Below are positions 3,672 to 20,061 of a stretch of 64,000 nucleotides of DNA, piece by piece. The notes beneath the pieces were generated by a model. That model did not search any database. It saw only the letters and a program-made list of their open reading frames with translations, and was not told the DNA's origin. The DNA is from Chitinophagaceae bacterium (GTDB lineage: Bacteria; Bacteroidota; Bacteroidia; Chitinophagales; Chitinophagaceae). Position 1 is the first letter of the stretch; every line of letters begins with the position of its first letter. The DNA lies in contig JAHBTJ010000015.1 in assembly GCA_019638595.1 (NCBI GenBank), positions 150,466-214,465 of the forward strand. The letters are read 5' to 3'. The position numbers and the translations under genes were made by a program.

Positions 3672-3713
3672 TCAACTCAATAGCTTAGTACATCATACTT
3701 TAAAAGATTTTAA

Positions 3714-6110
3714 GTGCAAACATCTTCTCAAAAACAGCTACAGCGGATCAATAATATAACGCAGGACGAGACCTTAAATATGCAAAATATTTTTGCCAAG
3801 ATCCTTAACAGGTGGCCCTGGATCATTTTAAGCCTGCTGATATCCTTATCGGTAGCCTACGCTTATCTCAGGTATGCTTCCCCGGTATATAAGTCGAAGG
3901 CAAGTTTAATGATAAGGGATGACAAGAAAGGAGGAAGCCCGTTGGACAACCAGGTACTCAGAGGATTGAATATAGAGCCATCCTCCCAGTCGCTTGACAA
4001 TGAAATGGAGATACTGAAAAGCTATGACCTGATAGAATCTGTTGTGCGCAGGGAACAATTGTATGTGGATATTAAAACGAAAGGCCGTTTGGTAGAGCGT
4101 ACCGTGTATGGAAATGAAGAGCCGTTGTTTTTTAGCTTTGCCAACCCCGATACCGTAGAACGCGTGCTTAACTGGACACTAAGGGAGGCACCGGCAGGTG
4201 AATGGACCTTGATCCATCATGGCGAAGACCAGCCATTGCACGTTACCCCCGGGAAATGGTACCGCATAAACGGGCTTGCCTTTAAAACTACAGTTAATCC
4301 TTTACATGTAAGGGAAAAAACACAAAGCAAAAAAGAGGAAACTGAATACGCAGTTACAGTAAAGCCGCTTCCACTGGCGATCAACGGCTTTATTAAAAAC
4401 CTTAATATCAAAGTAGTGGGCAAAGCTGCCAGCATTGTATATCTTGAATTTACAGATTATAACAGGCAAAAGGCAGTTTCGGCATTAAGTGCTTTGATCA
4501 ATATTTATAATAAGCAGGGACTGGATGACAAAAAGCGGGAGAATGAAAATACACTTGAGTTTCTTGAAGAACGTGTGGCAATGGTGGAAAGAGAGCTGCA
4601 GTTGGTAGAAAGCAAGGTAGAAAATTTTAAAAGTGGCAACAGGATCACCGATGTAAGTACCGAAGGGCAACAATACCAGCAGCTTTCGCAGGCGGTGGAT
4701 GAACAAAAAGCCCAGCAACAAAGCCAGCTGAACATACTGGAAGGACTTGAAAAAAGAATAAGGGAAAACCAGAACGATCCTAAATTGGTGCCGTCAACGG
4801 CTGGCATTACCGAACCAACCTTATCGGGGCTCATTCAAAACCATAATGCATTAATACACGAAAGAGATAGAAAGCTGCAGATATATGGGCCGAAAAACCC
4901 ATTGAATGTGGATATGGAAAATGACATAGCGAATGTGAGGGAAAGCATATTGTCGAACATCGCTAACCTGAAAAGCGCGTACAATACCGCCCTGACTGAT
5001 ATCAATAAAAGAGAGTCCGCTTTATCCGCCAGGATCAGGACGATCCCTAAAATTGAAAAGAACCTGTTGCAGATAAACAGGGATCAGAACGTAAAGCAGC
5101 AGCTCTATTTTATTTTATTACAACGGCGCGAAGAAACCGCCATATCGTTGGCGTCCACTACTGTGGACAGCAGGGTTGTAGAGGCTCCGCGCAGTATGGG
5201 CATTGTTAGTCCTAAAGGTCAAACGGTGCTGCTGGTTGGCATAGTGGTAGGCTTGTTATTGCCCATAGGCATTATTTACCTTATGGATGCGATGAATAAT
5301 AAAATCGAGAGCAAGATGGAAGTGGAACAGAAATGTCATGCTCCTTTGCTCGGAGAGATATCGTATTCAAAAAAAACCGACTCTCCCATTATTATTACCA
5401 AAGGAAGCCGGTCTATTATTGCGGAGCAGTTCAGGGTAATTCGAACGAATATCAGCTTTACAGGACGCGGAAAGAAAAGCGAGGTTATACTCGTTACCTC
5501 TCATCGTCCTGAAGAAGGAAAATCATTTACCAGCCTGAACCTGGCGGCGAGTTATGCGCTGCTGAATAAAAAGGTGATAGTGCTTGAATTTGATTTGCGT
5601 AAACCACGCTTAAGTCAGAACCTTAATATCAAGGCCGATATAGGCATCAGTAACTACCTCAATAATTCCGGTAATCTTAAAAGCATGTTGAAAGAAGTGC
5701 CGGGCTTTGACAACAATTTCTGGTTATTGCCTTCGGGGCCTATTCCTCCCAACCCCGCCGAATTGATATTAGGCCCCAAAATGGATGATCTTGTAAAGGA
5801 ATTAAAAGAACAGTTTGATTATATCATTTTTGATACGCCGCCTTATACATTGGTTACCGATTCCTCGCTGCTGTCTGCTCATTCGGATATCAGCGTGATC
5901 GTATTGCGCAATGGCTTTACATTTAAATGGGTACTGCAGGAAATTAATAAGAAAATACAGGACAATCCTGATCAGCCTTATTATACGGTATTGAACCGGG
6001 TTGACGAAAGAAGCAGGTACGGAGCATACAGGAACTATGGGTACGGATATGCCGAATATTTTGACGCTCCTGAAAGAAAGAAGAAGTGGTATAATATATT
6101 TAAAAAGTAA
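3714..6110 (+). CDS. Wzc-like polysaccharide co-polymerase and BY-kinase
   Basis: An inner-membrane protein that controls chain length and couples polymerisation to export. Order: short cytoplasmic N-terminus, TM (about 36-53), Wzz domain, long coiled coil (about 265-460, rich in E, Q and K), a GNVR-type second region, TM (about 500-520), then a cytoplasmic tyrosine kinase. Kinase motifs: Walker A as RPEEGKSFTS (canonical PGEGKS has Gly where the first Glu stands), Walker A' as VLEFDLRKP (Glu for the usual first Asp), Walker B as IIFDTPP. The C-terminus is a tyrosine cluster (YGAYRNYGYGYAEY), the usual autophosphorylation tail. The start is GTG right after an in-frame stop. ATG at 3780 is an alternative, but the longer N-terminus matches relatives. 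Confidence 0.9.
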   Translation: MQTSSQKQLQRINNITQDETLNMQNIFAKILNRWPWIILSLLISLSVAYAYLRYASPVYKSKASLMIRDDKKGGSPLDNQVLRGLNIEPSSQSLDNEMEILKSYDLIESVVRREQLYVDIKTKGRLVERTVYGNEEPLFFSFANPDTVERVLNWTLREAPAGEWTLIHHGEDQPLHVTPGKWYRINGLAFKTTVNPLHVREKTQSKKEETEYAVTVKPLPLAINGFIKNLNIKVVGKAASIVYLEFTDYNRQKAVSALSALINIYNKQGLDDKKRENENTLEFLEERVAMVERELQLVESKVENFKSGNRITDVSTEGQQYQQLSQAVDEQKAQQQSQLNILEGLEKRIRENQNDPKLVPSTAGITEPTLSGLIQNHNALIHERDRKLQIYGPKNPLNVDMENDIANVRESILSNIANLKSAYNTALTDINKRESALSARIRTIPKIEKNLLQINRDQNVKQQLYFILLQRREETAISLASTTVDSRVVEAPRSMGIVSPKGQTVLLVGIVVGLLLPIGIIYLMDAMNNKIESKMEVEQKCHAPLLGEISYSKKTDSPIIITKGSRSIIAEQFRVIRTNISFTGRGKKSEVILVTSHRPEEGKSFTSLNLAASYALLNKKVIVLEFDLRKPRLSQNLNIKADIGISNYLNNSGNLKSMLKEVPGFDNNFWLLPSGPIPPNPAELILGPKMDDLVKELKEQFDYIIFDTPPYTLVTDSSLLSAHSDISVIVLRNGFTFKWVLQEINKKIQDNPDQPYYTVLNRVDERSRYGAYRNYGYGYAEYFDAPERKKKWYNIFKK

Positions 6111-6145
6111 TTGAATCATGTTTTTGACTATTTATAGCAGTCAAT

Positions 6146-7063
6146 ATGTTTTCAGTAGTTATACCGCTTTATAATAAAGAAAAGAGCGTCCCCGGCACGA
6201 TTGCCTCCGTATTAAACCAGGAGGTTAAAGATTTTGAGCTGATCATAGTAAACGATGGTTCTACCGATAAAAGTCTTGAGATTGTTGAAGCGATAAAAGA
6301 CGACAGGATCATTATTATCAATAAGCAGAATGGTGGTATATCAAGTACCCGGAATGCAGGTATAAGAGCGGCTAAAAATCCCTACATAGCTTTTGTTGAT
6401 GCGGATGATTACTGGGAGCCTGACTTTTTAACCACTGTTTCAGCCCTGATCAGCGATTACCCCGAAGCCGATGCATTTGCAACAGGCTATGTTTGCAAGT
6501 TCAATGGACTTACATTGCATACCCTGGGAGTAAAGAACAGGGGAATCATTAAAGACTATTTCAAACTTGTATATCGCTACCCGGTAATGCATGCTTCATC
6601 GGTTTGCATAAAGAAAAGCAGTTTTGAAAAAGTGGGATGGTTTGATGAAAGAATGACACACGGAGAAGATTATAACATGTGGGACCGGTTGGGTAAGTAT
6701 GGATTGATCGCGGCGTCTCCCCAACCCTGCGCATGGTATCAACTGGATACAGAGAACAGGGCATTGTTGCGGGTACCCCAGCCTTCCAAACACTGGATGT
6801 ATTATATAAATAAAGAGGAGATCAGGAGCAGGGAGGAGGCTGCCTATTATAAAAGGTATATCAGGCGCCAGGTGCTTTTTTATTTTTTAAAAGGAAAAAT
6901 AAAATGGGCCTGGCAAATTGCGTATAAGCAACGGGGCCTAACAAGTTGGTTTTCGTATTTAATGGTGCACGAATACCGTGAATTAAAAAGTATTCCACAC
7001 CTTGTAATGAATAAATTAAAGAAGATTTTTTTCAGAAAGCAGGTGGCATTGGCAGAAAGATGA
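6146..7063 (+). CDS. Glycosyltransferase family 2
   Basis: GT-A fold transferase that adds one sugar of the lipid-linked repeat unit at the cytoplasmic face. The N-terminus has the family opening (FSVVIPLYNKEKSVPGTIAS), the nucleotide-binding stretch IIVNDGSTDKS (about 31-41) and a DxD-type metal motif in AFVDADDYW (about 90). The ED pair of the acceptor region appears as HGEDYNMW (about 171). 305 residues is normal length, with no membrane segment. It follows the wza-wzc pair by 35 bases and is probably co-transcribed. Donor and acceptor cannot be told from sequence. Confidence 0.88.
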   Translation: MFSVVIPLYNKEKSVPGTIASVLNQEVKDFELIIVNDGSTDKSLEIVEAIKDDRIIIINKQNGGISSTRNAGIRAAKNPYIAFVDADDYWEPDFLTTVSALISDYPEADAFATGYVCKFNGLTLHTLGVKNRGIIKDYFKLVYRYPVMHASSVCIKKSSFEKVGWFDERMTHGEDYNMWDRLGKYGLIAASPQPCAWYQLDTENRALLRVPQPSKHWMYYINKEEIRSREEAAYYKRYIRRQVLFYFLKGKIKWAWQIAYKQRGLTSWFSYLMVHEYRELKSIPHLVMNKLKKIFFRKQVALAER

Positions 7064-7091
7064 ATTGATATTGGTAATCAAGAAAGTAAAA

Positions 7092-8384
7092 ATGAAGATT
7101 TTAATTGTAAGTTATAGTTATCCTCCTGACAATACTCCTGCCGCGCAAAGGCCTTACTTTATTGCCAAATACCTGGCACTATTAGGCCACGATGTAAATA
7201 TACTTACAACCGGCGCATCCAATAGCTCTCTCGGAAAAAGTAACTGGGCAAAGCCTTTACCGGGTGTAACGGTTTGGGATACCGCAAGATCAAAACCTGT
7301 AGTACATCAAAGCGATGAGCCGGCAGCCCCCAAAAAAGCCGTTACGGGGTCCAAAACCAAATGGATCAAAAAAATTGCGCAAATGGTACTTTTTCCGGAT
7401 AAAGCAATACTATGGTTCAGGGAATTGCTGGGATACGATCTAGGAAAGATAGGAAAGCCGGATGTTGTAATTAGCACTTCTCCATTGTTTACCAATCACC
7501 TGGTAGCAAAAAGAGTGGTAAAGAGATTTAAATGTAAATGGATCGCCGATATACGCGATTTTCATTATACAAACACGGAAAGAGAGAAATCCGGGGGCTT
7601 AAAGAACAGGTTGAACGGAAGAATTGAAAGGGATTTATTAAAAAGAGCCGACTATATAACATTTGTCACCCAAACAATGAGAAATGTTTATTGCAGCAAA
7701 TATGAATATGTAAAGCAGAAATCAATGGTTGTTTACAATGGCTTTGAGCCTGAAGAATACCCTGCCGCACAGAATATTCTGCCTTCGGATAAAATGAAAA
7801 TTTTTTATGCCGGTTCTTTTTATGATGGCTTGCGTGACCCGGCCCCGCTGCTGGCGGCGCTGGATATTCTTGTGCAGAAAAAGCTGGTGGATATTAATAA
7901 AGTTGAAATAGAAATTGCCGGCAATATACCCGAAGTAATTGCCCAAAGGATCAATCAATACCAATCTGCCGCCTGTGTAAAATTTTTGGGGTTGATTGAA
8001 AGAAAGGCAGCGATCGAAAAGATGAATAACTCGCATTTGTTGTGGCTTATCATTGCCAACGTAAAGTCGCATTATATGACGTTTCCCTTAAAAGGGTTTG
8101 AATATATAGGAAGCAGGAGGCATATTGTTTTATTTTCACCACCCCAGGCAGAAGGTAAGATCATTGTTGAAGAATTGGGAGTGGGTACCTTTTTTAATCT
8201 TGCTACCGACGATGCTACAAATAATGAAAATGCGGAAAAGTTATTGCAGCTTTATAACAGTACTATGAACGGAGCGTTTGCTGATCCGGTAAAGGTAGAA
8301 GATGAAAAGCTTCTTCCATTTTTGCGAAAGGGACAGTCAATGCAGTTCAGCAATATAATACAAAGCCTACATGCAGCAGAATGA
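7092..8384 (+). CDS. Glycosyltransferase family 4
   Basis: GT-B fold transferase for the repeat unit. It starts with MKILIVSYSYPPDNTPAAQRP, the usual N-terminal strand and glycine-poor loop of GT4 enzymes that assemble cell-surface glycans. The donor-binding C-terminal half begins near residue 235 (MKIFYAGSFYDGLRDP). The C-terminal E-x7-E motif is weak here (LKGFEYIGSRRHIVLF). An in-frame TTG at 7065 would add nine residues; ATG at 7092 gives the cleaner family start. Its end overlaps the next gene by 14 bases, which implies translational coupling. Confidence 0.85.
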   Translation: MKILIVSYSYPPDNTPAAQRPYFIAKYLALLGHDVNILTTGASNSSLGKSNWAKPLPGVTVWDTARSKPVVHQSDEPAAPKKAVTGSKTKWIKKIAQMVLFPDKAILWFRELLGYDLGKIGKPDVVISTSPLFTNHLVAKRVVKRFKCKWIADIRDFHYTNTEREKSGGLKNRLNGRIERDLLKRADYITFVTQTMRNVYCSKYEYVKQKSMVVYNGFEPEEYPAAQNILPSDKMKIFYAGSFYDGLRDPAPLLAALDILVQKKLVDINKVEIEIAGNIPEVIAQRINQYQSAACVKFLGLIERKAAIEKMNNSHLLWLIIANVKSHYMTFPLKGFEYIGSRRHIVLFSPPQAEGKIIVEELGVGTFFNLATDDATNNENAEKLLQLYNSTMNGAFADPVKVEDEKLLPFLRKGQSMQFSNIIQSLHAAE

Positions 8385-9636
8385 ATGGTTCAATAAGAAT
8401 TTGCTGGGAAGGATATATGTAATTCTTTCCTTTATTATAGTTCCTTTGGGAGAATCGGGCTTAATGGGCAGAATTACCATTCCTGATATAATACTGGTAG
8501 CGGCCGCTGTATTGCTGTTGGGAAGTAAAAGAATTTATGCCCCGCGCATGAAAGTGCCATTGTTTCTTGTAGGGTCGTTTTTGATAACAGCTTTCCTTAG
8601 CCTGGATGTACGACTTTCTCTTACTGAAATATTGGTGATGGTTTTCCTGCTGATAGGGATCGTAGTAGTATATAATGTATATCATCAAAATTTTAAATTG
8701 TTGTTTCTCGATATATCAAGGGCCATCATTCTTTCGCTGGTAGTTGGGGTATATGATTTTTTTGCAGGTGGTGTGGGGTTGCCGAGGCTTTTCCCGGGAA
8801 GGGCTCCAGGGGAGATTGTTTCAGCCTTTCGTAACGCCGGGCAGGCCGGAGCGTATGTGCTTGTGATGTTAACGATATTGCTGCCGGTATATCTCAGCAG
8901 CTTTAAAAACAGCTTTAAGGGCGCTGATAAAATGCTTATTAATACCGGCATCATTTGCGGGGTGGTATTTTTGTTTATCAGTGGTAAAATTGCCGCATAC
9001 ATCGGCTTTTTTAGCAGTATCATTTTTTTAAACATCATGCAACGGAATGTGAAAGCGCTTTTTTCCACTGTTTTTATTGGAGCAATACTGGGTGTTATTT
9101 ACTTTAACCTGGAAGATATATCTCCGGCGCTCAATAAACGTATTCAGGCTAAAATTGAAAGCAGGATCACCGACAATATTGACGGAACCAGGAACGTTAC
9201 TGAAGAAGGCTTTATCGCTGAAAATATCGGTAATGCTATCCGTGCCTTTAGCGATAACCCCTTGTCCGGTTCCGGTATCGGTGCTTTTTCTGTGGAATAT
9301 GGGCGACATGAAGTGCACAGTACCTATTTTAAAATGGTGGGGGAAACCGGCTTGATCGGGATAATAGGGTATACTTTTTTCTTCTTTTTTATGTTTAAGA
9401 TCATTTTGTGGAAAATACCTCCCCGGAGCGTATTGCAGGAAAGATTACTTGACTATAAAAGGGTATTGCTGCCTTTTTATTTAGGATGCCTTATAAGCTG
9501 GGCATATACCTACCATTTAAGAAAACGCGAGTTCTGGATTATGGTATCCCTGATACTTCTTATAAATACAGTTCTTAAATACGATACGGAAGAAGAAGAG
9601 GAGGAGGAAAATAATATTGATTATGCAAAGCAATAA
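8371..9636 (+). CDS. O-antigen polymerase/ligase-like membrane protein, Wzy
   Basis: A polytopic inner-membrane protein (about 10-11 hydrophobic segments by eye, 421 residues) of the Wzy_C type. The large periplasmic loop contains NPLSGSGIGAFS and then HSTYFKMVGETGLIG, the conserved His-containing stretch of O-antigen polymerases and ligases. It sits beside the flippase, wzc and glycosyltransferases, so polymerase (Wzy) is the better call than ligase. An acidic run (EEEEEEEN) closes the protein. It overlaps the preceding GT4 and the following flippase by 14 bases each. Confidence 0.85.
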   Translation: MQQNEWFNKNLLGRIYVILSFIIVPLGESGLMGRITIPDIILVAAAVLLLGSKRIYAPRMKVPLFLVGSFLITAFLSLDVRLSLTEILVMVFLLIGIVVVYNVYHQNFKLLFLDISRAIILSLVVGVYDFFAGGVGLPRLFPGRAPGEIVSAFRNAGQAGAYVLVMLTILLPVYLSSFKNSFKGADKMLINTGIICGVVFLFISGKIAAYIGFFSSIIFLNIMQRNVKALFSTVFIGAILGVIYFNLEDISPALNKRIQAKIESRITDNIDGTRNVTEEGFIAENIGNAIRAFSDNPLSGSGIGAFSVEYGRHEVHSTYFKMVGETGLIGIIGYTFFFFFMFKIILWKIPPRSVLQERLLDYKRVLLPFYLGCLISWAYTYHLRKREFWIMVSLILLINTVLKYDTEEEEEEENNIDYAKQ

Positions 9637-11029
9637 TGATAATGTGCGGGCAACGGGTTTGCAGGGAGGATTGGTAGAGAAGGCGAAGCAACTTTTTAAC
9701 AGGTATAAGAAAAGCAGTTATTCTTCGGGGATCTTGTTGGCCATTTCCCAGAGTGTTGTAGCGTTGGTTTTTATACTCATAGATTACATCTATTCAAAAA
9801 AGCTCACCAAAGTTGAATTTGGCGCATGGAAGAAAATGTATTTTATCATTCAGTTCGTTACTCCCCTGTTGTCTTTAGGCTTTCCCGAAGGGTTCAAATT
9901 CTATATTGCTAAAGAGAATAACAAACCCTTATTTTTTTCCAACTTTTTTTTTACATTTTTAGCTATAGCGGTAACAGAACTGGTGGTTATAGTTTTCCTG
10001 AATATTTTTCATTACGCGGGGTGGGTAGATCTTAATGTGTACTTTTTGGTGAGCCTGCTTTTTCCATTCGCGTTTTTTTGTTACGGTATCAATCAATCGC
10101 TTAAATATACTTTTATAAATGAACAACGGGTGTTTGATTTTATAAAAGTTACCCTTGTCAGCTTAACCACTACAATAGTTTTTATTATATTGTCCGGACT
10201 TTTGGTAAGCGTATATAAGTCTTACTATATGGTATTGGGTGTGCTGCTGTATATTTTAACTTTTGGGTTGCCGCTCTATGCATTGTACGGAAAATCGGGG
10301 TTAACGCTGAACCGGAGCCTGGTTAACATGCAGCAGGTTAAAAAAATGTTTGCTATCGGCTTCCCGTTATATTGCGCTTCCTTTATCGGGGTAATAAGCA
10401 TTAATCTTAACAAAGGGGTGGTTGCTTTTCTTGAATCTAAAGAAGCGTTCGCTGTTTTTTCGGTAGGCGCTTTGGAAATACCCGTTTTTGCAATGCTGAG
10501 CGCATCGTTTTCACAGAATATTTATCCCAAGCTGGTGCAATATGTTCAAAATGGTGAAAAAGAAAGGGCGAAAAGGCTTTGGATCGACACAACAAGAAAG
10601 GTCTCTTATATTACGTATCCGATATTGCTGATACTGATGCTTTTTGCCAAGCAGATAATCTTCCTTATCTATTCAAAGGAATACCTGGATTCTGTTATTT
10701 TATTTCAAACTTTTTTATTGATCGGGCTTTTTAGAAATAATTTTTATGGAGCGTTAATTGTTGCCTCAGGAAAAACCAAGTTCATTACTTTTTACAGCGC
10801 ACTTTCGCTCGTTTCTAATCTTATTATTTCATTGTCGTTGTATTATTTTTTCGGGATCAGGGGAATTGTATATGGCAATCTTATGTCGGTGGTAATTATT
10901 AACTGCCTGCAGTTAAATCATGAGAATCTGCTGGGTGATTACGTCAGGAAATTTTTATTTGATAAAAAAATATTCTTTCTCGTTTTAGCAATTTTAGCAG
11001 CATATTTTTATGCTGTATTTAAAGCGTAG
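9623..11029 (+). CDS. Oligosaccharide flippase, Wzx-like (MOP superfamily)
   Basis: Transfers the undecaprenyl-linked repeat unit across the inner membrane. 468 residues with about 12-14 hydrophobic segments and the polysaccharide_synt pattern of a short basic N-terminus followed by paired helices. ATG at 9623 (MQSNNDNVRATG) is preferred over a TTG two codons earlier. It overlaps the polymerase gene by 14 bases. A second, unrelated-looking flippase is found at 38566, so the genome carries at least two glycan export routes. Confidence 0.88.
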   Translation: MQSNNDNVRATGLQGGLVEKAKQLFNRYKKSSYSSGILLAISQSVVALVFILIDYIYSKKLTKVEFGAWKKMYFIIQFVTPLLSLGFPEGFKFYIAKENNKPLFFSNFFFTFLAIAVTELVVIVFLNIFHYAGWVDLNVYFLVSLLFPFAFFCYGINQSLKYTFINEQRVFDFIKVTLVSLTTTIVFIILSGLLVSVYKSYYMVLGVLLYILTFGLPLYALYGKSGLTLNRSLVNMQQVKKMFAIGFPLYCASFIGVISINLNKGVVAFLESKEAFAVFSVGALEIPVFAMLSASFSQNIYPKLVQYVQNGEKERAKRLWIDTTRKVSYITYPILLILMLFAKQIIFLIYSKEYLDSVILFQTFLLIGLFRNNFYGALIVASGKTKFITFYSALSLVSNLIISLSLYYFFGIRGIVYGNLMSVVIINCLQLNHENLLGDYVRKFLFDKKIFFLVLAILAAYFYAVFKA

Positions 11030-11053
11030 AAAAGCATTAAAGCTTTAAAGCAT

Positions 11054-12208
11054 ATGGCCAAAAGAAAATTGATGCGGGTTACAACCATTCCTGGCTCGTT
11101 AAGGTATTTATTAAAAAATCAATTGAAATTCATGAACCAGCATTACGAGGTTCATGCAGTTGCCAGTCCCGGCCAATCATTGGAAGAGGTTGGTAAAAGC
11201 GAAGGAGTAATAACGCATAGCGTATTAATGACGCGTACCATCTCACCCTGGAAGGATTTTGTAGCCTTAATTAGACTGATAAAAATAATACGAAAACTAC
11301 GCCCGGAAATTATACATACACATACTCCCAAGGCGGGCACATTGGGAATGATAGCTGCGAAGGTTACGGGCGTTCCTGTTCGCATGCATACGGTTGCCGG
11401 TCTGCCTTTGCTGGAAGCGAGGGGTAAGAAAAGAAAGCTCCTGGACCTGGTAGAGAAATTAACCTATTCGTGCGCTACCATGGTATATCCTAATTCGTTT
11501 GCCCTGAAAGACATTATTATAAAAAACGGTTATTGTAAAGAAAACAAGCTTTCGGTAATTGGTAATGGAAGCTCCAATGGTATTGATACCTCTTTTTTTG
11601 ATCCTGCCCGGGTTTCGGAAGAAGCCTGCGACGCGCTGAGGAAAGAGTTAAATTTTGAAAAGACAGACAAAGTTTTTTGCTTTATAGGGAGGATTGTAAA
11701 AGATAAGGGCATTCATGAATTGTTAGAAGCTTTTAGCCGTAATGAAAAGAAGGGGTTATCGGCAAAATTGCTATTGCTGGGAACCTTTGAGCAAAAGCTG
11801 GATCCTATAACCAGGGAGGCGGAGGAGATGATATCCTCTCATCCTGACGTACGGTTTGTAGGATTTCAAAAGGATGTGCGCCCCTATCTGGCGATAAGCG
11901 ATATTTTTGTTTTTCCAAGCTATCGCGAGGGCTTCCCCAATGTAGTAATGCAGGCAGGATCTATGGGATTGCCCTGCATTGTAAGTAATATAAACGGGTG
12001 CAACGAAATAGTTGAACACCAGAAAAACGGGCTGATAGTGGCGCCTAAAAGCATGGAGGAATTGGGCGATGCCATGCTTTTTTTGATGGAAAATGAAGAA
12101 GCAAGAAAGAAAATGGCGGCAATATCGCGCCGGATGATCGTTGACAGGTACAGCCAGCAATATATCTGGGACGAATTGCTCAAAGAGTATCGAAAGCAAA
12201 CTGCTTAA
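11054..12208 (+). CDS. Glycosyltransferase family 4
   Basis: GT-B glycosyltransferase (384 residues) of the group that acts early on undecaprenyl-linked glycans in PglA/WbpT-like pathways. It contains IIHTHTPKAGTLGMIAA (about 86-102) and HTVAGLPL in the acceptor half. In the donor half it has FIGRIVKDKGIHELLEAF (about 213) and FPSYREGFPNVVMQAGSMG, where the second Glu of the E-x7-E motif is replaced by Gln. It lies 24 bases after the flippase and 90 bases before the acyltransferase/ACP module. Confidence 0.88.
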   Translation: MAKRKLMRVTTIPGSLRYLLKNQLKFMNQHYEVHAVASPGQSLEEVGKSEGVITHSVLMTRTISPWKDFVALIRLIKIIRKLRPEIIHTHTPKAGTLGMIAAKVTGVPVRMHTVAGLPLLEARGKKRKLLDLVEKLTYSCATMVYPNSFALKDIIIKNGYCKENKLSVIGNGSSNGIDTSFFDPARVSEEACDALRKELNFEKTDKVFCFIGRIVKDKGIHELLEAFSRNEKKGLSAKLLLLGTFEQKLDPITREAEEMISSHPDVRFVGFQKDVRPYLAISDIFVFPSYREGFPNVVMQAGSMGLPCIVSNINGCNEIVEHQKNGLIVAPKSMEELGDAMLFLMENEEARKKMAAISRRMIVDRYSQQYIWDELLKEYRKQTA

Positions 12209-12298: not shown

Positions 12299-12940
12299 AT
12301 GAATCATAAAATTGCAATTGCCGGTGCCGGGGGCTTTGCAAAAGAAGTTTATTTAATAATTGAAGCGATCAATAAACGAGAGCCTACATGGGATTTTATT
12401 GGTTTTTTTGATGATAAAATACCCAGGGGACGGTTATTTTTGAATTTTGAAGTATTGGGAAATATGAATGATTTGAATAATATAAATGAAGGGTTGAATG
12501 TAGCGGTAGCAGCGGGCAGATCGGAAAATATCATCTCTATATTAAATAAGCTCACTTCCCCGGGAATCTCCTTTCCCAATATTATTCATCCAAAGGCTTT
12601 TTTACATTTTGAATCGTTGAAAATGGGAAAGGGGAACATTATCCAGGCTGACTCTTCTTTTTCGGCAGATAACAGGGTGGGGGAGTATAATATATTTAAT
12701 GCCTCGGTAAAAGTTGGGCATGATACTTTGATCGGTAATTATAATACATTTGCTACAGGAACATTTATTTCGGGTGGGGTGGCAGTGGGAGACAGAAATA
12801 ATTTTGGCATTGGTTCCGGTGTTCTTCAATATAAAACGGTAGGTAATGGTAACACAATAGGACCTTTATCTATCTTATTCAAAAGTATTAAAGACAATGG
12901 GCATTATTTAGGTGTGCCGGCTTTGCCCACCGGTATGTAG
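12299..12940 (+). CDS. PglD/NeuD-like left-handed beta-helix acyltransferase
   Basis: 213 residues. The N-terminal Rossmann-like domain (IAIAGAGGFAKEVYLII, about 4-20) binds the UDP-sugar in PglD relatives. The C-terminal hexapeptide-repeat helix (about 95-205) carries the catalytic-type histidine in VKVGHDTLIGNYN (His about 139). PglD enzymes N-acylate the 4-amino group of UDP-4-amino-sugars using acetyl-CoA. Here the next genes encode an acyl carrier protein and chain-making enzymes, so an acyl-ACP donor is a reasonable inference. A second paralogue lies at 18223. Confidence 0.82.
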   Translation: MNHKIAIAGAGGFAKEVYLIIEAINKREPTWDFIGFFDDKIPRGRLFLNFEVLGNMNDLNNINEGLNVAVAAGRSENIISILNKLTSPGISFPNIIHPKAFLHFESLKMGKGNIIQADSSFSADNRVGEYNIFNASVKVGHDTLIGNYNTFATGTFISGGVAVGDRNNFGIGSGVLQYKTVGNGNTIGPLSILFKSIKDNGHYLGVPALPTGM

Positions 12941-13013
12941 GTTAATTAGATATCCTTCTGTAAAAATCTTTGTATGGAAGACCATAGATTTTTCATTTTA
13001 AACAAAGTTTTTT

Positions 13014-13241
13014 ATGGACAAAAATGCATTTCTCAGCTCTTTTGCGGATCAGTTCGATGACACGGATATATCTTCCATTACTTTAAATACCAGGTTCAAA
13101 GAGCTGGATGAATGGAGCTCAATGGTGGCTTTGATGATCATTGCAATGGTAGATGAAAATTATAATAAGAAAATTACCGGTGCAGATCTGAGAGAGTCAG
13201 ATACTATTGAACAGTTGTTTAACAGGGTCAGCGCAAAATAG
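13014..13241 (+). CDS. Dedicated acyl carrier protein
   Basis: A 75-residue acidic helical protein with the ACP pattern. The 4'-phosphopantetheine serine is Ser36 in LDEWSSMVALM, where the usual DSL reads SSM; the preceding Trp is typical of ACPs tied to secondary or surface-glycan pathways rather than primary fatty-acid synthesis. It is followed by a ketoreductase and two KAS III genes, and primary-metabolism partners (fabD, fabF, fabZ) are absent, which supports a pathway-specific carrier. Start is ATG, 73 bases after the acyltransferase. Confidence 0.85.
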   Translation: MDKNAFLSSFADQFDDTDISSITLNTRFKELDEWSSMVALMIIAMVDENYNKKITGADLRESDTIEQLFNRVSAK

Positions 13242-13343
13242 CTTCGGTATGCTCATTTTGTAATCAGCTCCTGTACCGGCTATTATTGAAAAACTGATAT
13301 TGGCTGAAAACTTCCTTCAAAATTATTGGTATCAAACTTTTTT

Positions 13344-14105
13344 ATGGATCAAAGTTCTCCTTTTTCTTTAGCCGGGAAAACAATCGTGGTTGCAGGAGCC
13401 TCTTCGGGAATAGGGCTGAGTATTTGCCGGAGCGTTGTAGCGGCAAATGGAAAAGTAATTGGTTTGGCCAGGAGGGAAGACAGGTTGCAGGCAATGGTAG
13501 ATGAATTAGGCCCGGAAAGTGCTTCCTGCATAAAAGCCGATTTATCGAAAGATGAAGATATTGAAAATGCTGTAGCGCGGTTACCGGAAATAAACGGATA
13601 TGTACATGCAGCCGGTATTATAAAATGGGGACCGCTTAAGTTTATTAAAAGACAGGCCCTGGAAGAAATAATGAATGTAAATTATTACTCCATGGTATTG
13701 ACGCTGGCCGAAATGACCAGGAAAAAAAAGATCAAAAAGCAGGTGTATTCTTCAGTAGTGGTCATATCATCTGTTTCAGCGCTGGTGGGCTCAAAATCCA
13801 ATTTGCTGTATACCGGCAGCAAGGGCGCTATGTCTGCCGCCGCACGTGTAATTGCAAGTGAATATGCTGCTCAAAAAATCAGGGTGAACGCCGTAGAGCC
13901 GGCAATGGTACATACCGATATGGCTTCTGAAGCCGAAGCGTTACTTTCGAGAGAGGCGGTTGAGAAAGATATGCAAAGTTATCCCTTTGGGTATGGTACA
14001 CCGGAAGACGTGGCCAACGCCACTGTTTTTTTACTTTCAGATGCTTCGCGATGGATAACCGGCCAGTCTTTAGTGCTGGATGGCGGATGGCTTAATTTAG
14101 TATAA
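13344..14105 (+). CDS. Short-chain dehydrogenase/reductase, FabG-like ketoreductase
   Basis: 253 residues. Cofactor motif GASSGIG (about 18-24), NAA-type motif as HAAG (88-91), catalytic Ser (about 143) with Tyr156 and Lys160 in LYTGSKGAM, and the usual C-terminal SRWITGQSLVLDGGW. All catalytic residues of a classical SDR are present. Between an ACP and two KAS III genes, reduction of a 3-oxoacyl-ACP to a 3-hydroxyacyl-ACP is the likely reaction. A sugar ketoreductase is the alternative. ATG at 13344 is preferred over a TTG six codons upstream. Confidence 0.85.
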   Translation: MDQSSPFSLAGKTIVVAGASSGIGLSICRSVVAANGKVIGLARREDRLQAMVDELGPESASCIKADLSKDEDIENAVARLPEINGYVHAAGIIKWGPLKFIKRQALEEIMNVNYYSMVLTLAEMTRKKKIKKQVYSSVVVISSVSALVGSKSNLLYTGSKGAMSAAARVIASEYAAQKIRVNAVEPAMVHTDMASEAEALLSREAVEKDMQSYPFGYGTPEDVANATVFLLSDASRWITGQSLVLDGGWLNLV

Positions 14106-14143
14106 TAACAAAAACAAAAGTATACGGAAGTATACAAAAGCAT

Positions 14144-15202
14144 ATGGCGCTACTGCATAACAAACATGTTTCCATTACCGGCATCAGTGCCTGTGTTCCC
14201 CGGCAGGTTATAAGGAACCAGGATAACCTTGTCTTTCCTGAAAATGATGTAAAAACGTTCGTTAGCAATGTAGGTATTGAAGAGTATCGTGCCAGCGAAC
14301 CGGCAATGTGTGCTTCCGATTTGTGCGTGGCCGCGGCGGAAAAGCTTATAGAGGATATGGGCATCTGTAAGGAAGATATCGGGATACTGGTATTTGTTTC
14401 CCAGTCGCCGGATTATTATTTCCTGCCCAATACTGCCTGTATCATCCAGGACAGGTTGAACCTTAGCAAAGAAACGCTCGCTTTTGATGTGCCTTTAGGA
14501 TGCAGCGGGTATATATACGGCCTGAATATTATCGCTTCCTATCTTTCTGCCGGTCAAATAAAAAAAGGATTGCTGCTGGTAGGAGATACGGCCTCTAAAA
14601 CCACCAATGCCAAAGATAAAAGCAGCGCCCTGCTTTTTGGAGATGCGGGTGCGGCTACTATATTGGAGTACGCTCCCGGAGCGGAAGGTATTCATTTCCA
14701 TCTGGCAACCGATGGTGCGGGATATAAGGCCATCATTGTTCCCGAAGGTGGCTTTAGGAACAGGTTTTCTCATGGATCGCTGGAGGAAAAAACCAATGAG
14801 GAAGGGTTGATCAGGTGCGGCATTAATGTTCACCTGGATGGGTTTGATGTTTTTTCATTTGGCATAACCGAGGCGCCTAAAACGGTTAAGAAACTCACGG
14901 AGCAGTTAAAGCTTACCAATAGCGATATTGACTTTGCCGTTTTTCACCAGGCAAACAAAATGATGAATGAAAAAATAAGGAAAAAGCTTGCTCTTCCTGA
15001 AGACAAGGTTCCCTATTCGCTTAAAAAATTTGGTAATACCAGTTCGGCGTCTATCCCGCTCACCATGGTTGCCGCTATACGCGGGCAGCTGCACCGGCAA
15101 AAAGCGCGTGTTATTTTATGCGGATTCGGTGTAGGGTTATCCTGGGGCACAGCCTATACAACACTTGACGGTATTTTTGTTTCTGAACTGGTTGAATTAT
15201 AA
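14144..15202 (+). CDS. 3-oxoacyl-ACP synthase III-like enzyme (first copy)
   Basis: Condenses a CoA-linked starter with malonyl-ACP. 352 residues, thiolase fold, with the full Cys-His-Asn triad: Cys120 in PLGCSGYIYG, His268 in VFHQANKMM, Asn298 in FGNTSSAS. Two KAS III genes in tandem inside a polysaccharide locus, with an ACP and a ketoreductase, point to synthesis of a short acyl group for a sugar. It ends 4 bases before the second copy begins. The two copies diverge widely outside the active-site blocks, so they probably have different substrates and are not a recent duplication. Confidence 0.88.
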   Translation: MALLHNKHVSITGISACVPRQVIRNQDNLVFPENDVKTFVSNVGIEEYRASEPAMCASDLCVAAAEKLIEDMGICKEDIGILVFVSQSPDYYFLPNTACIIQDRLNLSKETLAFDVPLGCSGYIYGLNIIASYLSAGQIKKGLLLVGDTASKTTNAKDKSSALLFGDAGAATILEYAPGAEGIHFHLATDGAGYKAIIVPEGGFRNRFSHGSLEEKTNEEGLIRCGINVHLDGFDVFSFGITEAPKTVKKLTEQLKLTNSDIDFAVFHQANKMMNEKIRKKLALPEDKVPYSLKKFGNTSSASIPLTMVAAIRGQLHRQKARVILCGFGVGLSWGTAYTTLDGIFVSELVEL

Positions 15203-15206
15203 AAAT

Positions 15207-16223
15207 ATGCCGGTTGATCCTGCAACCATATCTGCTGTAGCGTACTATCTTCCAAACAGGGAGCTGACGAATGAGCAGCTTAGTATCGAATTTCCTGAAT
15301 GGAGCGTAGAAAAAATAATGGCTAAAGTAGGTATTGCCAGCCGGCGTATAGCCGCTCCCGATGAATTTGTTTCAGACCTTGCGGTAAAAGCATCTCAAAA
15401 GCTGTTTGAAGAGCATAATATTAGTGCTGCCGATATTGATTACCTGGTTGTATGCACGCAAAGTCCTGATTATTTTTTGCCGGCTACTTCCTGTATTGTT
15501 CACCACCGGTTAGGCTTACCCGCTAACGCAGGAGCAATAGATGTGAACCAGGGCTGTTCGGGCTTTGTATATGGACTTGGGCTTGCAAAAGGAATAATAA
15601 CTTCCGGCGATGCATGTAACATTCTTTTGATCACTGCCGATACCTACAGCAGGTTCCTGCACCCGCTTGATAAAGGTAACCGGTCTATTTTTGGCGATGC
15701 CGCCGCGGCTACCCTTGTATCTTCGAAAGGAGCTGGAGCAATAATAGGAAAAATGATTTGGGGTACTGATGGCAGGGGCGCCCACAATTTAATAGTTAAG
15801 AATGGAGCCATGCGTTCACCCAGATCGGGCGATACTCATTTATATACCGATGAAGATGGTAACGCATACAATGATAATTACCTCTTCATGAATGGATCGG
15901 AGGTATTTAATTTTACGCTGGAAGCGGTTCCTGCGCTTATAAGCCGGATACTTGAAAAAAACAATTTGAAGCAGGAGGAAATTGATCTTTTTGTTTTTCA
16001 CCAGGCTAACAGGTTCATACTCGATTATTTAAGAAAGAAAACGAAAATTCCTGCCGATAAATTTTTTATATGGATGGAAACCTGCGGTAACACGGTTTCT
16101 TCTACTATACCTATCGCTTTGTACCAGGCACAAAAAAGTAATAGTATTAAAAAGGGGGATAAGGTGTTGGTAGCGGGTTTTGGAGTGGGGTATTCCTGGG
16201 GAGGAACTGTTTTGTATTTTTGA
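15207..16223 (+). CDS. 3-oxoacyl-ACP synthase III-like enzyme (second copy)
   Basis: 338 residues with an intact triad: Cys117 in NQGCSGFVYG, His265 in VFHQANRFI, Asn295 in CGNTVSST. The GFGVGYSWGG C-terminus is typical of the FabH group. The start is ATG at 15207; the reading frame is open back to 15165 but that lies inside the first copy. Paired with the preceding gene it could perform a second elongation or use a different starter. Such pairs are known from surface-glycan loci that make hydroxylated short-chain acyl substituents on amino-sugars. Confidence 0.88.
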   Translation: MPVDPATISAVAYYLPNRELTNEQLSIEFPEWSVEKIMAKVGIASRRIAAPDEFVSDLAVKASQKLFEEHNISAADIDYLVVCTQSPDYFLPATSCIVHHRLGLPANAGAIDVNQGCSGFVYGLGLAKGIITSGDACNILLITADTYSRFLHPLDKGNRSIFGDAAAATLVSSKGAGAIIGKMIWGTDGRGAHNLIVKNGAMRSPRSGDTHLYTDEDGNAYNDNYLFMNGSEVFNFTLEAVPALISRILEKNNLKQEEIDLFVFHQANRFILDYLRKKTKIPADKFFIWMETCGNTVSSTIPIALYQAQKSNSIKKGDKVLVAGFGVGYSWGGTVLYF

Positions 16224-16250
16224 GCACTTTTTCATTTATCAGCTTCTGTT

Positions 16251-16859
16251 ATGTACAAAGGATTTTTTAAAAGGATATTGGATTTTTTTGTAGCTACTAT
16301 CGGCTTTTTGATCTTGCTCCCGGTTTTTTTAATAGTAATGTTTTTGTTATTGATAGCAAACTCGGGGAAACCGTTTTTTTTCCAGGACAGGCCCGGGCGT
16401 AACGGTAAAATATTCAGGGTTATTAAATTTAAAACCATGAATGATAAAACCGACGACAGGGGTAATTTGTTGCCGGGAGAATTGAGGATCACAAAAGTGG
16501 GGAACTTTGCCAGGAAAACCTCTCTTGACGAGATCCCGCAATTGATAAATGTAATAAAAGGAGATATGAGCCTGGTTGGGCCGCGTCCGTTGCTGGTATC
16601 CTATTTGCCATTGTACAATCAAAAGCAAAAAAGACGGCATGAAATGAGACCGGGCATTACCGGATGGGCGCAGGTAAACGGAAGGAACGCCATTAGCTGG
16701 GAGCAAAAGTTTGAATACGATGTTTGGTATGTTGATAACTGCTCTTTAGGGCTTGATATAAAAATACTTTTTTTAACGGTGCTTAAAGTGTTCAGGAGCG
16801 AAGGCATTAACGCAGGTGAAAAGGTAACCATGAAACCTTTTACAGGTTCAGGCGAATGA
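16251..16859 (+). CDS. Initiating sugar-1-phosphate transferase, PglC-like
   Basis: A monotopic phosphoglycosyl transferase that moves a sugar-1-phosphate from a UDP-sugar to undecaprenyl phosphate, the first step of the repeat unit. 202 residues: one re-entrant hydrophobic segment (about 10-35), basic FKTMND motif (about 60), catalytic Asp-Glu pair in TSLDEIPQLINV, then LVGPRPLL and MRPGITGWAQVNGRN. The short form (no extra N-terminal helices) is that of PglC, which uses 2,4-diamino-sugars. With the DegT aminotransferase and PglD-like genes nearby this fits an amino-sugar first residue. Confidence 0.9.
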   Translation: MYKGFFKRILDFFVATIGFLILLPVFLIVMFLLLIANSGKPFFFQDRPGRNGKIFRVIKFKTMNDKTDDRGNLLPGELRITKVGNFARKTSLDEIPQLINVIKGDMSLVGPRPLLVSYLPLYNQKQKRRHEMRPGITGWAQVNGRNAISWEQKFEYDVWYVDNCSLGLDIKILFLTVLKVFRSEGINAGEKVTMKPFTGSGE

Positions 16860-16964
16860 TGGGAACGGCAGGGTAAAGCAATGATTTATTGCAATATTTT
16901 GATTGATTCATATAATTTGTTACTGCCTGCTCCTTCCGGATATGGATAAAACAGAAAAAAAATA

Positions 16965-16972
16965 TATCTTTG
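16965..16972 (+). promoter_or_regulatory. Candidate -7 element before the ATP-grasp gene
   Basis: TATCTTTG, an exact TAnnTTTG match in the 268-base gap. It lies directly against the start of a 37-bp imperfect tandem repeat. No convincing -33 box. Confidence 0.4.
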
Positions 16973-17045
16973 AGCATTATTCCCAATAACTCCCTCCTGG
17001 TATAATTTGAGCATCATCCCAATGCCTCTACTCTGGTATAAATGT
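16972..17045 (+). repeat. Two imperfect tandem copies of a 37-bp sequence
   Basis: Copy 1 (16972-17008) and copy 2 (17009-17045) both run GAGCAT..AT..CCCAAT....CTC....CTGGTATAA.. with scattered substitutions and one small shift. Each copy ends in a TATAA-like segment, so the repeat could hold duplicated protein-binding sites or promoter parts. It is in the leader of the ATP-grasp gene. Confidence 0.6.
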
Positions 17046-17127
17046 ACCTGCACGCCACTTTTTAGATTTTTGCGGGTGTCTTGTTAAGTTTTCGTGCAGT
17101 TGTGGCAGTTTATTTTATTAAGCAAGG

Positions 17128-18156
17128 ATGATATTACAGAGAATAGCTTATATACCATACTATTTATTGAAGACACCCTGGAAAATCTTCTTTACTTATT
17201 TTTCTTTTGTAAAAAAGAAAAATAAAATCCCTGCAATAAAGCTGCTGAAGGATCTGTTCAAAAATATTTTCAGGTACAATGCTGCTCCACTCGATTATTT
17301 TACACTTCGTTTTTTTGATCTTACAGAAAATGAGCGGGCCTTATACGCCTGTACCGGGTTTATGTACGAATACCAGTTAAGAATGAACCCTTCTGAGTAT
17401 AGATCTGTTTTACGTGATAAAATAAAATTTCTTGCTCACTTTAAAGATTTATCCGGTCGTGAATGGGCTACCGTAAAAATGCTGAAGGAAGATCCCGGTA
17501 TTGCCCAAAAATTTATTTGTAATCCTGAAAAAAAGTTCGTTATAAAGAAAGCCACAGGCCAGGCAGGAAAACAGGTGGAGGTTGTAAACAGCTCGGGTAT
17601 GAATGCAGAAGCGATCATTAAACTGATGGAAGAGAAAGGTTTTGATCTGCTGGAAAGATATGTAATTCAGCACGATGACCTGATGAGGTTGTCGCCGGCC
17701 GCTTTAAATACGGTAAGGATTGTAACGCAGTATAATAATGGTGTTGTGGATGTGTTGCTCGCTTTTATAAGGATCAGCGTAAATATGAAGGTTGATAATT
17801 TATCGGCAGGGAATTACGGAGCGAATTTTGGCGCTCCCATTAACCTGGCAACCGGTAAAATAATGGCTCCTGGCATGTATATTGATATCACAAAGCCCAA
17901 TGAGTATCATCACCCGGTTACAAAAGTTAAGCTGGTAGAATTCCAGATACCTTTTTGGAAGGAGAGTGTAGAGCTGGTGAAGAAGGCTGCCTGCCATATT
18001 CCTCAAAACAGGTCTGTAGGATGGGATGTGGGGATCACCAACCAGGGGCCGGTTCTTATTGAAGGAAATCATAACTGGAATTATTTGTCTCAGCTTTTGG
18101 GAAGCAAAGCGTTGAGGAATGAATTTTTACAATATCAGTCTGACCTTTTATCTTAA
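17128..18156 (+). CDS. Sugar-transfer-associated ATP-grasp protein
   Basis: 342 residues of the ATP-grasp type that is found in polysaccharide loci. ATP-grasp enzymes join a carboxylate to an amine or hydroxyl through an acyl phosphate. Visible: a Lys-rich nucleotide-binding part (KKFVIKKATGQAGKQVEVV, about 132-150), LLERYVIQHDDL, then SAGNYGANFGAPINLATGKI and the C-terminal metal-binding block GWDVGITNQGPVLIEGNHNWN (Asp, Glu and Asn ligands). The substrate is unknown. Attachment of an amino acid or hydroxy acid to the glycan is an inference. It is separated from its neighbours by 268 and 66 bases, and the gap before it holds tandem repeats. Confidence 0.78.
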   Translation: MILQRIAYIPYYLLKTPWKIFFTYFSFVKKKNKIPAIKLLKDLFKNIFRYNAAPLDYFTLRFFDLTENERALYACTGFMYEYQLRMNPSEYRSVLRDKIKFLAHFKDLSGREWATVKMLKEDPGIAQKFICNPEKKFVIKKATGQAGKQVEVVNSSGMNAEAIIKLMEEKGFDLLERYVIQHDDLMRLSPAALNTVRIVTQYNNGVVDVLLAFIRISVNMKVDNLSAGNYGANFGAPINLATGKIMAPGMYIDITKPNEYHHPVTKVKLVEFQIPFWKESVELVKKAACHIPQNRSVGWDVGITNQGPVLIEGNHNWNYLSQLLGSKALRNEFLQYQSDLLS

Positions 18157-18222
18157 CACAAAAATTCTAAGCAGTTTACCCAGATATATGGTTAGTACTA
18201 TTTGAATGCCTAATTTTAGATA

Positions 18223-18873
18223 ATGAATAAGTTTAATTTACTTGTAATCGGGTGTGGAAATGTGGGGGCGTTTGTAGCTTACAACTTTAAAGATTTTCAA
18301 CTGGATGATTTTGTGATGCAGGGTTTTATTGATGATGATCAGGAAAAATGGGACAAAAATCTTTTCGGATATCCTGTGCTGGGAGGAGTTGACAAGATCG
18401 TTCATTTGCAGGAAAAGACAGGGGTTGTAGTTACTATAGCCAACCCTGTTATTAAAAAGAAAATAATAGACAAATTACTTCCCAATAAAAATATAATATT
18501 CCCTTCTCTTGTTTCCCGGCATTCGTGGATATCCACTCATGTGTTTATTGGCAATGGCGTAATTATTTATCCGGGCGTTTCTATAAACTATCATACCCGT
18601 GTTGAAGACTTTGTTATTATAAATATGAATTCCGCCATAGGGCACGATTGCCATATTCAACGGTTTAGCGCGCTTGCGCCGGGTGTTGCTTTAGGGGGCT
18701 TTACCAATATAGGAGAGTGTGTTGACATGGGTATACATTCCGCCACCAGGCAGTCGGTAAAAATTGGTAAACATTCTGTTGTGGGAGGAATGGCCATGGT
18801 AGTGAAGGATTTGCCCGACTCGGTGACTGCCGTAGGCGTTCCCGCTAAAATCGTAAAAACAAAAAAAGCGTAA
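18223..18873 (+). CDS. PglD/NeuD-like acyltransferase (second copy)
   Basis: 216 residues with the same architecture as the gene at 12299: N-terminal nucleotide-sugar domain (LLVIGCGNVGAFVAYNF) and a C-terminal left-handed beta-helix. The active-site stretch is SAIGHDCHIQRFSALAPGVALGG (His about 144), close to the NeuD/PglD consensus, and the end GVPAKIVK is typical of hexapeptide acetyltransferases. Just upstream of the DegT aminotransferase, as pglD is next to pglE in bacillosamine-type loci. Whether it uses acetyl-CoA or the acyl-ACP made by the module at 13014-16223 is open. Confidence 0.82.
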   Translation: MNKFNLLVIGCGNVGAFVAYNFKDFQLDDFVMQGFIDDDQEKWDKNLFGYPVLGGVDKIVHLQEKTGVVVTIANPVIKKKIIDKLLPNKNIIFPSLVSRHSWISTHVFIGNGVIIYPGVSINYHTRVEDFVIINMNSAIGHDCHIQRFSALAPGVALGGFTNIGECVDMGIHSATRQSVKIGKHSVVGGMAMVVKDLPDSVTAVGVPAKIVKTKKA

Positions 18874-18927
18874 ACTTTTCCGCTTCGCTTAATTTTACTG
18901 CAAATAATCTATTTCGAAATAAAAAGT

Positions 18928-20061
18928 ATGCATCCAAAAATCTGGCTTTCATCTCCTCATATGGGAGGCAACGAACGGAAATATGTTACAGAAGCTTTTG
19001 ATACCAACTGGGTAGCTCCCTTAGGCCCGCATGTGAACGGGTTTGAAAAAGATATCAGCGCTTTTCTTTTGCCCGGCAACGGGAACGAAATTCATGTAGC
19101 GGCATTGAGCTCGGGTACGGCTGCAATACATCTTGGGTTGATATTGATGGACGTAAAAGCCGGGGATGAGGTGATATGCCAAAGTATGACCTTTTCCGCA
19201 TCGGCAAATCCTATTGCTTACCAGGGAGCCACGCCTGTTTTTGTAGACAGCGAACCTGATACCTGGAACATGTCGCCTGAATTTCTGGAAGAAGCGATCA
19301 AGGACAGGATCGCTAAAGGACGTAAGCCCCGGGCGATCATTCCCGTGCATTTATACGGTATGCCGGCCAAAATGGATGCTATTATGCAAATAGCCGGCAA
19401 TTATGAAATACCGGTGCTGGAAGACGCGGCGGAAGCTTTAGGCAGCCATATCAATGGTAAAATGTGCGGCACGTTCGGAGTTATTTCCGCGCTGTCCTTC
19501 AACGGCAATAAGATCATTACTACTTCAGGCGGTGGCGCCCTGGTAGCGCATGACGCCCGGATAGCTGAAAAAGCAAGATTTCTTTCAACACAGGCGCGCG
19601 ATGCGGCGCCGCATTACCAGCACTCTCATATTGGCTACAATTACCGTATGAGCAATATTTGTGCGGGAATAGGAAGGGGGCAAATGGAAGTGTTGCAGGA
19701 AAGGATCGCCCAAAGAAGAGCAAACTTTGAATGGTATAAAAATGAGCTGCAAGAGATTGCCGGGTTAGCATTTCCGGCTACTCCCGAAGGTTATTTTTCT
19801 AACCACTGGCTTACTACCGTTATTGTAAATGATGACAGCGTTGACCGCGAAAAGCTAAGGCTCGCATTGGAAGCCGTGAATATAGAAAGCCGGCCCCTGT
19901 GGAAGCCCATGCATAAGCAACCCGTTTTTGCCGGTGCGCCTTTTTATGGCGACGGCACTTCGGAACGGTTGTTTGAAAAAGGCTTGTGCCTGCCTTCCGG
20001 CTCTAACTTAACTCAACAGGAAAAGGAAAGGATATTAAAAGAAATAAAAGCGGTGTTTTAA
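18928..20061 (+). CDS. DegT/DnrJ/EryC1-family nucleotide-sugar aminotransferase
   Basis: PLP-dependent enzyme that aminates a 4-keto (or 3-keto) nucleotide sugar; PglE-like, with the opening IWLSSPHMGGNERKYV. Substrate and cofactor motifs: SSGTAAIHLGL (about 66-76), EDAAEALGSH (about 166), and the PLP lysine in SFNGNKIITTSGGG (Lys about 197). 377 residues is normal. It is the last gene of the locus and gives the amino group that the PglD-like enzymes would acylate. The 4,6-dehydratase that makes its substrate is not in this window. Confidence 0.9.
   Translation: MHPKIWLSSPHMGGNERKYVTEAFDTNWVAPLGPHVNGFEKDISAFLLPGNGNEIHVAALSSGTAAIHLGLILMDVKAGDEVICQSMTFSASANPIAYQGATPVFVDSEPDTWNMSPEFLEEAIKDRIAKGRKPRAIIPVHLYGMPAKMDAIMQIAGNYEIPVLEDAAEALGSHINGKMCGTFGVISALSFNGNKIITTSGGGALVAHDARIAEKARFLSTQARDAAPHYQHSHIGYNYRMSNICAGIGRGQMEVLQERIAQRRANFEWYKNELQEIAGLAFPATPEGYFSNHWLTTVIVNDDSVDREKLRLALEAVNIESRPLWKPMHKQPVFAGAPFYGDGTSERLFEKGLCLPSGSNLTQQEKERILKEIKAVF

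Follow-up and report, generated by a model that had tools for sequence, protein, structure and literature searches.

A likely N-acyl side-chain module with two tandem ketoacyl synthases in a Wzx/Wzy-type polysaccharide locus of a Chitinophagaceae bacterium

The O-polysaccharide (O-PS) of the fish pathogen Flavobacterium psychrophilum carries, in strains with the R1 gene set, a 3,5-dihydroxyhexanoyl group on Qui2NAc4N (bacillosamine). According to the passages of Cisar et al. 2019 (PMC6519341) on this R1-group, wfpC and wfpE are different 3-ketoacyl-acyl carrier protein (ACP) synthases, wfpD is an ACP, wfpF a reductase and wfpG the one PglD homologue assigned to the C6 dihydroxy chain. Together wfpC-wfpG, for which the paper lists GenBank MK214915 to MK214917, are assigned to making the 3,5-dihydroxyhexanoyl group and transferring it; wfpB is homologous to PglC, and the 4-amino sugar is made by pglE and pglF. 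These gene roles are homology-based predictions; the group itself has been demonstrated by chemical analysis and NMR. For two strains without the R1 set the same passages predict other R-groups, and the part of PMC5601056 that treats the type strain gives it as Type-0. In Pseudomonas syringae a set with one ketoacyl synthase (vioS, vioR, acp, vioB, vioA) goes with 3-hydroxybutanoyl-viosamine, and deletion of vioR removes the modified sugar, as stated in the viosamine passages of Yamamoto et al. 2011 (PMC3927599). Here we analyse a nine-gene run with two enzymes of the beta-ketoacyl-ACP synthase III (KAS III) type, found in a 64,000-nucleotide stretch of a Chitinophagaceae bacterium (the window, G000:C7:150466-214465 of a 7.06 Mb genome).

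The run occupies 12299-20061 of the window, entirely on the + strand and with intergenic gaps of at most 268 bases. Its order is PglD1, ACP, a short-chain dehydrogenase/reductase (SDR), the two KAS III (KASA and KASB), a PglC-like protein, an ATP-grasp protein, PglD2 and a PglE-type DegT protein. Wza-, Wzc-, Wzy- and Wzx-like genes lie upstream on the same strand. From the gene content we consider it likely that the run, with the pathway proposed below, is a dedicated N-acyl side-chain module within a Wzx/Wzy-type surface-polysaccharide locus. The general function, an acyl-chain module for a sugar, can be assigned with slightly greater confidence, while 3,5-dihydroxyhexanoyl as the exact product is a tentative suggestion by analogy. 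The genes are as follows.

12299-12940, + strand: PglD-like acyltransferase 1 (PglD1); Pfam PglD_N, 1.4e-10
13014-13241, + strand: dedicated acyl carrier protein; PP-binding 0.0019, family profile, Ser36 and structure model
13344-14105 (other start TTG 13326), + strand: SDR ketoreductase, FabG-like; adh_short_C2 4.2e-46, adh_short 1.8e-37
14144-15202, + strand: KAS III type A (KASA); ACP_syn_III and ACP_syn_III_C, Cys-His-Asn triad
15207-16223 (TTG 15165 also open), + strand: KAS III type B (KASB); ACP_syn_III and ACP_syn_III_C, Cys-His-Asn triad
16251-16859, + strand: PglC-like phosphosugar transferase, 202 aa; Bac_transf 5.7e-63
17128-18156, + strand: ATP-grasp protein (ATPgrasp_ST); PF14397 1.8e-43
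18223-18873, + strand: PglD-like acyltransferase 2 (PglD2); TIGR03570 167.0 bits, above cut-off
18928-20061, + strand: PglE-type nucleotide-sugar 4-aminotransferase; DegT 2.8e-96, TIGR04181 389.6 bits (cut-off 420)
2898-12208, + strand: remainder of the polysaccharide locus (Poly_export, Wzc-like, GT2, GT4, Wzy_C, Wzx-like, GT4); Pfam matches

An initial annotation of this DNA had placed an ACP, a ketoreductase and two tandem KAS III among glycan genes, flanked by a PglC-like transferase, a DegT aminotransferase and two PglD-like acyltransferases. The Pfam and TIGR matches and a check of the triads recover every one of these genes; the ATP-grasp gene had been missed, and the two PglD-like proteins had been left undistinguished. 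It had also described a reductase with no dehydratase or enoyl reductase beside it, and we found neither enzyme within 12299-20061. A scan for promoters and terminators told us little, with 18 promoter-like sites where 24.6 were expected and 8 terminator-like sites where 10.6 were.

The two KAS III differ strongly from each other, as had been claimed, and both keep the Cys-His-Asn triad of active KAS III. They are identical at 116 of 333 aligned positions (35%). In a FastTree phylogeny of 196 sequences, KASB falls in a clade of 99 members with support 100 and KASA in one of 94 with a modest support of 66, and both clades stand apart from three other KAS III-like genes of the same genome. With KASB as query, five KAS III-like genes of that genome are recovered at E <=8e-19 (the window pair among them), along with two weak fragments of a sixth. 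Against the FabH model TIGR00747, which has a cut-off of 292.1 bits, KASA scores 212.2 and KASB 259.3, whereas two genes outside the window exceed it with 365.8 and 366.5 bits. We therefore rejected a housekeeping FabH role for either enzyme. The broader KAS III model NF006829 (cut-off 249) accepts KASB at 289.7 and not KASA at 238.5. The best solved matches are 4efi for KASA (1.8e-61) and 3gwa for KASB (2.6e-112).

The triad is kept in 99/99 sequences of the KASB clade and 91/94 of the KASA clade, together 190 of 193 with the window pair counted, and the idea of a dead KAS III was dropped as both window triads are intact. These counts also bear on a different role for one of the two, in which it would be an acyltransferase or serve the other as structural partner, in a pair of the PqsB/PqsC or ketosynthase/chain-length-factor type. 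KAS III-like acyltransferases such as CerJ and PqsBC are known, and in the Flavobacterium genus a KAS III-like gene lacking the triad is present at three loci; set against the conservation in both clades and in both window genes, such a role is improbable here.

In these three loci (L102, L103 and L113, from G732, G832 and G778) the gene without the triad, reading AQD, SQD or AHE, forms a tandem with a second KAS III-like gene, and there are two ACP and two SDR matches; L102, the one tested, also has an AMP-binding enzyme. The tandem is possibly a ketosynthase/partner heterodimer within a glycan locus.

The ACP is the weakest gene call when taken by itself. The window protein reaches PP-binding with E 0.0019 and 18.8 bits, just under the Pfam cut-off of 20.8, and searched alone it gives no family match at E 1e-3. 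It is nevertheless supported by a family profile, an invariant serine and a structure model. Among 30 aligned family members, hand-picked from a set of 50, the attachment-site Ser36 is invariant (30/30) and 28 match PP-binding at E <=0.01. The profile of this family finds solved ACPs, the best at 9.7e-10. The AF2 model of the window protein (pLDDT 92.9) has TM-scores of 0.64-0.81 to solved ACPs among the 50 rows listed, with no Foldseek E below 0.001. The PP-binding profile, the attachment serine and the ACP fold are thus all found, with the window copy alone falling slightly short of the Pfam threshold.

Outside this genome, KASA is present at E <=1e-65 in 24 of 395 genomes of the phylum, the own genome included, and at 1e-70 in 27 of 299 genomes of the genus of G361, read as Flavobacterium. 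The KASB relatives, taken as the best 80 of at least 571 confirmed when named genomes were scanned with an alignment of KASB, are mostly from Bacteroidota, with Acidobacteria, Spirochaetes and a few others. The KASA loci number 44, from 44 of the 50 non-own genomes matched in the family, phylum and Flavobacterium-genus searches; the other six were left out, and one of the 44 has no full KASA open reading frame. The own-genome loci L052-L054 are not part of the locus counts, and the KASA and KASB sets overlap (e.g. L049 and L124). Neighbours were counted within 6 kb on the same strand in loci flanked by at least 3 kb on either side. As the profiles were built from KASA loci, the set of 80 selected by KASB gives the fairer count.

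Among the 63 KASB loci with sufficient flank, an ACP is found in 62, an SDR in 59 and a PglD-like gene in 43; 34 have at least two KAS III and 32 have both types. The figures for the 41 KASA loci with flank are 41 for the ACP, 39 for the SDR, 35 for a PglD-like gene, 22 for two or more KAS III and 14 for both types. This recurrent company speaks against general lipid or secondary metabolism with a place beside glycan genes by chance. KAS III, ACP and SDR are fatty-acid families, but two FabH-grade genes are present elsewhere in the genome, and with an ACP near KASB in 62/63 loci and a PglD-like gene in 43/63 we regard such a coincidence as very improbable.

The ACP-SDR-KAS III-KAS III order that had been proposed as a check was found in other Bacteroidota loci. 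The core order PglD-ACP-SDR-KASA-KASB is present in L048, from a genome of the same genus, and in L121 and L122, from two Chitinophagaceae metagenome-assembled genomes. A 472-aa gene is inserted between ACP and SDR in L048 and L121, and none in L122 or the window; gene orders are given here without genes lacking any profile match. L121 continues with PglC-ATP-grasp-PglD2-DegT, as in the window. In the 19 kb of L048 the order is PglD1-ACP-SDR-KASA-KASB-DegT, with the extra gene after the ACP, behind Wzc, GT2, Wzy, Wzx and GT4, and there is no match to PglC, ATP-grasp or PglD2.

The inserted gene (L048:12076-13494) has no Pfam match at 1e-3 and resembles adenylate-forming enzymes, matching TIGR02304 at 3.4e-24, under its cut-off; it may load a different starter. 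At several loci of the Flavobacterium genus, among them L055, L109, L115, L117 and L118, a Rieske-type oxygenase lies within the KAS/ACP/SDR cassette, and all three copies tested (L055, L109, L115) match PF00355 and PF00848, which suggests an oxidised acyl chain.

On the sugar side, PglD1 scores 145.5 bits with TIGR03570, below the cut-off of 160.8, and adjoins the ACP also in L048, L121 and L122. We favour PglD1 as the acyltransferase because it is the sole PglD-like match in the 19 kb fetched from L048 and the module adjoins DegT there; it is likely an ACP-dependent N-acyltransferase. PglD2, whose closest solved chains include the perosamine N-acetyltransferase 4ea7 and VioB 7txp, probably depends on acetyl-CoA. 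The best solved relatives of the DegT protein are 1o61 and 4ztc, which we take to be PglE-type. A PglF-type dehydratase is encoded on another contig (G000:C34, PF02719 381 bits, 675-aa open reading frame). The ATP-grasp protein, a possible amino-acid or acyl ligase, occurs at E <=1e-20 in 2 of 147 family genomes, the own included, and has a paralogue with 51% identity at C2:60453. We discarded the idea that it is a regular partner of PglC, as the other window query proteins have no match around this paralogue or around a relative in the same genus (L207, L206).

The gene identities, intact triads, carrier serine and recurrent clustering are read from the sequences; we infer all substrates, the sequence in which the two KAS III act and the acyl chain. 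Most likely, a short acyl chain, 3-hydroxy or 3,5-dihydroxy, is built on the module's own ACP and attached by N-acylation to a 4-amino-4,6-dideoxy sugar. One KAS III would join acetyl-CoA or another short acyl-CoA of this kind to malonyl carried by the dedicated ACP, and the SDR would reduce the 3-keto group to a 3-hydroxy group. The second KAS III would then condense this 3-hydroxyacyl chain with another malonyl-ACP, and a second reduction by the same SDR would leave a 3,5-dihydroxyhexanoyl-type chain on the ACP. The PglF-type dehydratase and the PglE-type aminotransferase would supply UDP-2-acetamido-4-amino-2,4,6-trideoxyglucose, to whose 4-amino group PglD1 would transfer the chain from the ACP. 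The PglC-like protein, which probably starts the repeat unit, would load the sugar phosphate onto undecaprenyl phosphate, after which the glycosyltransferases together with Wzx and Wzy would complete the polymer. The domain matches, intact active sites, non-FabH KAS III and recurrent clustering all support the acyl-chain module for a 4-amino sugar that was first put forward.

Cassettes with a single KAS III are found for both types; each enzyme may therefore start a chain alone, and the pair need not act in series. With one condensation per chain, the two enzymes would either take different starter acyl-CoAs or be alternatives to each other. The outcome would be a C4 chain, 3-hydroxybutanoyl for example, or two distinct chains for the two PglD-like proteins. 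Two KAS III occur in only about half of the loci with flank, as counted above from either anchor (22/41 and 34/63). Since cassettes with a single KASA or KASB are common, each enzyme probably primes by itself, and the window has two PglD-like genes. On the other hand, L048 has both KAS III and a single PglD-like match, and the R1 passages pair two synthases and the single pglD homologue wfpG with a C6 dihydroxy chain (PMC6519341). We consider a single condensation unlikely, though well above the partner role discussed for the triads.

Several observations weigh against the serial N-acyl module preferred here. KASA is patchy in its own family, at E <=1e-65 in 5 of 195 genomes with the own included, and single-KAS cassettes of either type are common. 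The ATP-grasp and PglD2 genes are left unexplained by a simple acyl-chain pathway. Because the genome holds two FabA/FabZ-type dehydratase matches outside the run, a fuller reduction of the chain with housekeeping enzymes is conceivable. Finally, the window and the wfp set are likened by described function, not by sequence; none of 398 Flavobacterium-genus genomes matches the published F. psychrophilum control primers exactly.

This locus takes a gene set described from a single fish pathogen into another family of Bacteroidota, and such cassettes are found at many loci across the phylum. They provide a rule, open to testing, by which the acyl groups of surface sugars could be predicted; such groups affect antigenicity in F. 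psychrophilum. As a speculation that we hold to be rather unlikely, KASA and KASB could form a chain-length code in Bacteroidota polysaccharides, in which one KAS III gives a C4 hydroxyacyl sugar, two give a C6 dihydroxyacyl sugar, and Rieske or adenylating genes give further oxidised or differently primed chains; the ATP-grasp protein of the window may moreover attach an amino acid to its hydroxyacyl sugar. The passages of the cited papers considered here make no mention of an amino acid on such a sugar. Our literature searches found nothing on 3-hydroxybutanoyl or 3-hydroxybutyryl O-antigens involving an ACP, on bacillosamine capsules with an ACP, or on a polyketide-type route; for KAS and an ACP together with bacillosamine, PMC6519341 was the relevant paper.

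Among the known systems, the Campylobacter PglF/PglE/PglD/PglC pathway shares with the window an aminotransferase, the PglD family and a PglC-type transferase, and to our knowledge its bacillosamine pathway has no ACP or KAS III. Unlike the window it acetylates the sugar to diNAcBac, as mentioned in the passages of PMC6519341. The P. syringae island (vioA, vioB, vioT, vioS, vioR, vioM, acp) is, in the sections of PMC3927599 that describe it, like the window in having a KAS III, a ketoreductase, an ACP and an acyltransferase for a 4-amino sugar, but it has one KAS III where the window has two, and it serves a flagellin glycan, not a polysaccharide. Its sugar is dTDP-linked and its acyl chain is C4, N-(3-hydroxybutanoyl). 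Related cassettes of Chitinophagaceae, Flavobacterium, Mucilaginibacter, Bacteroidales and others (among L048-L200) have a window-like ACP and SDR with KASA and/or KASB, although many have one KAS III, and in some a Rieske oxygenase or adenylate-forming enzyme is present as well.

The closest match is F. psychrophilum wfpB-wfpG with pglE and pglF. As in the R1 passages, the window has one dedicated ACP and a ketoreductase together with a pair of dissimilar ketoacyl-ACP synthases, PglD-, PglC- and PglE-like genes (the PglE type partly presumed) in a Wzx/Wzy-dependent locus, and a PglF-like gene in the genome. It differs by the ATP-grasp gene, a second PglD-like gene and the location of the PglF-type gene on another contig. 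The comparison with the dihydroxyhexanamido sugar of Flavobacterium made in the initial annotation was therefore apt, while its statement that no pathway with this exact gene set had been described does not hold, as the R1 set described in PMC6519341 is the same in function and the cassette recurs elsewhere. The cassette is real, recurrent and largely as first proposed, but it has a precedent in F. psychrophilum.

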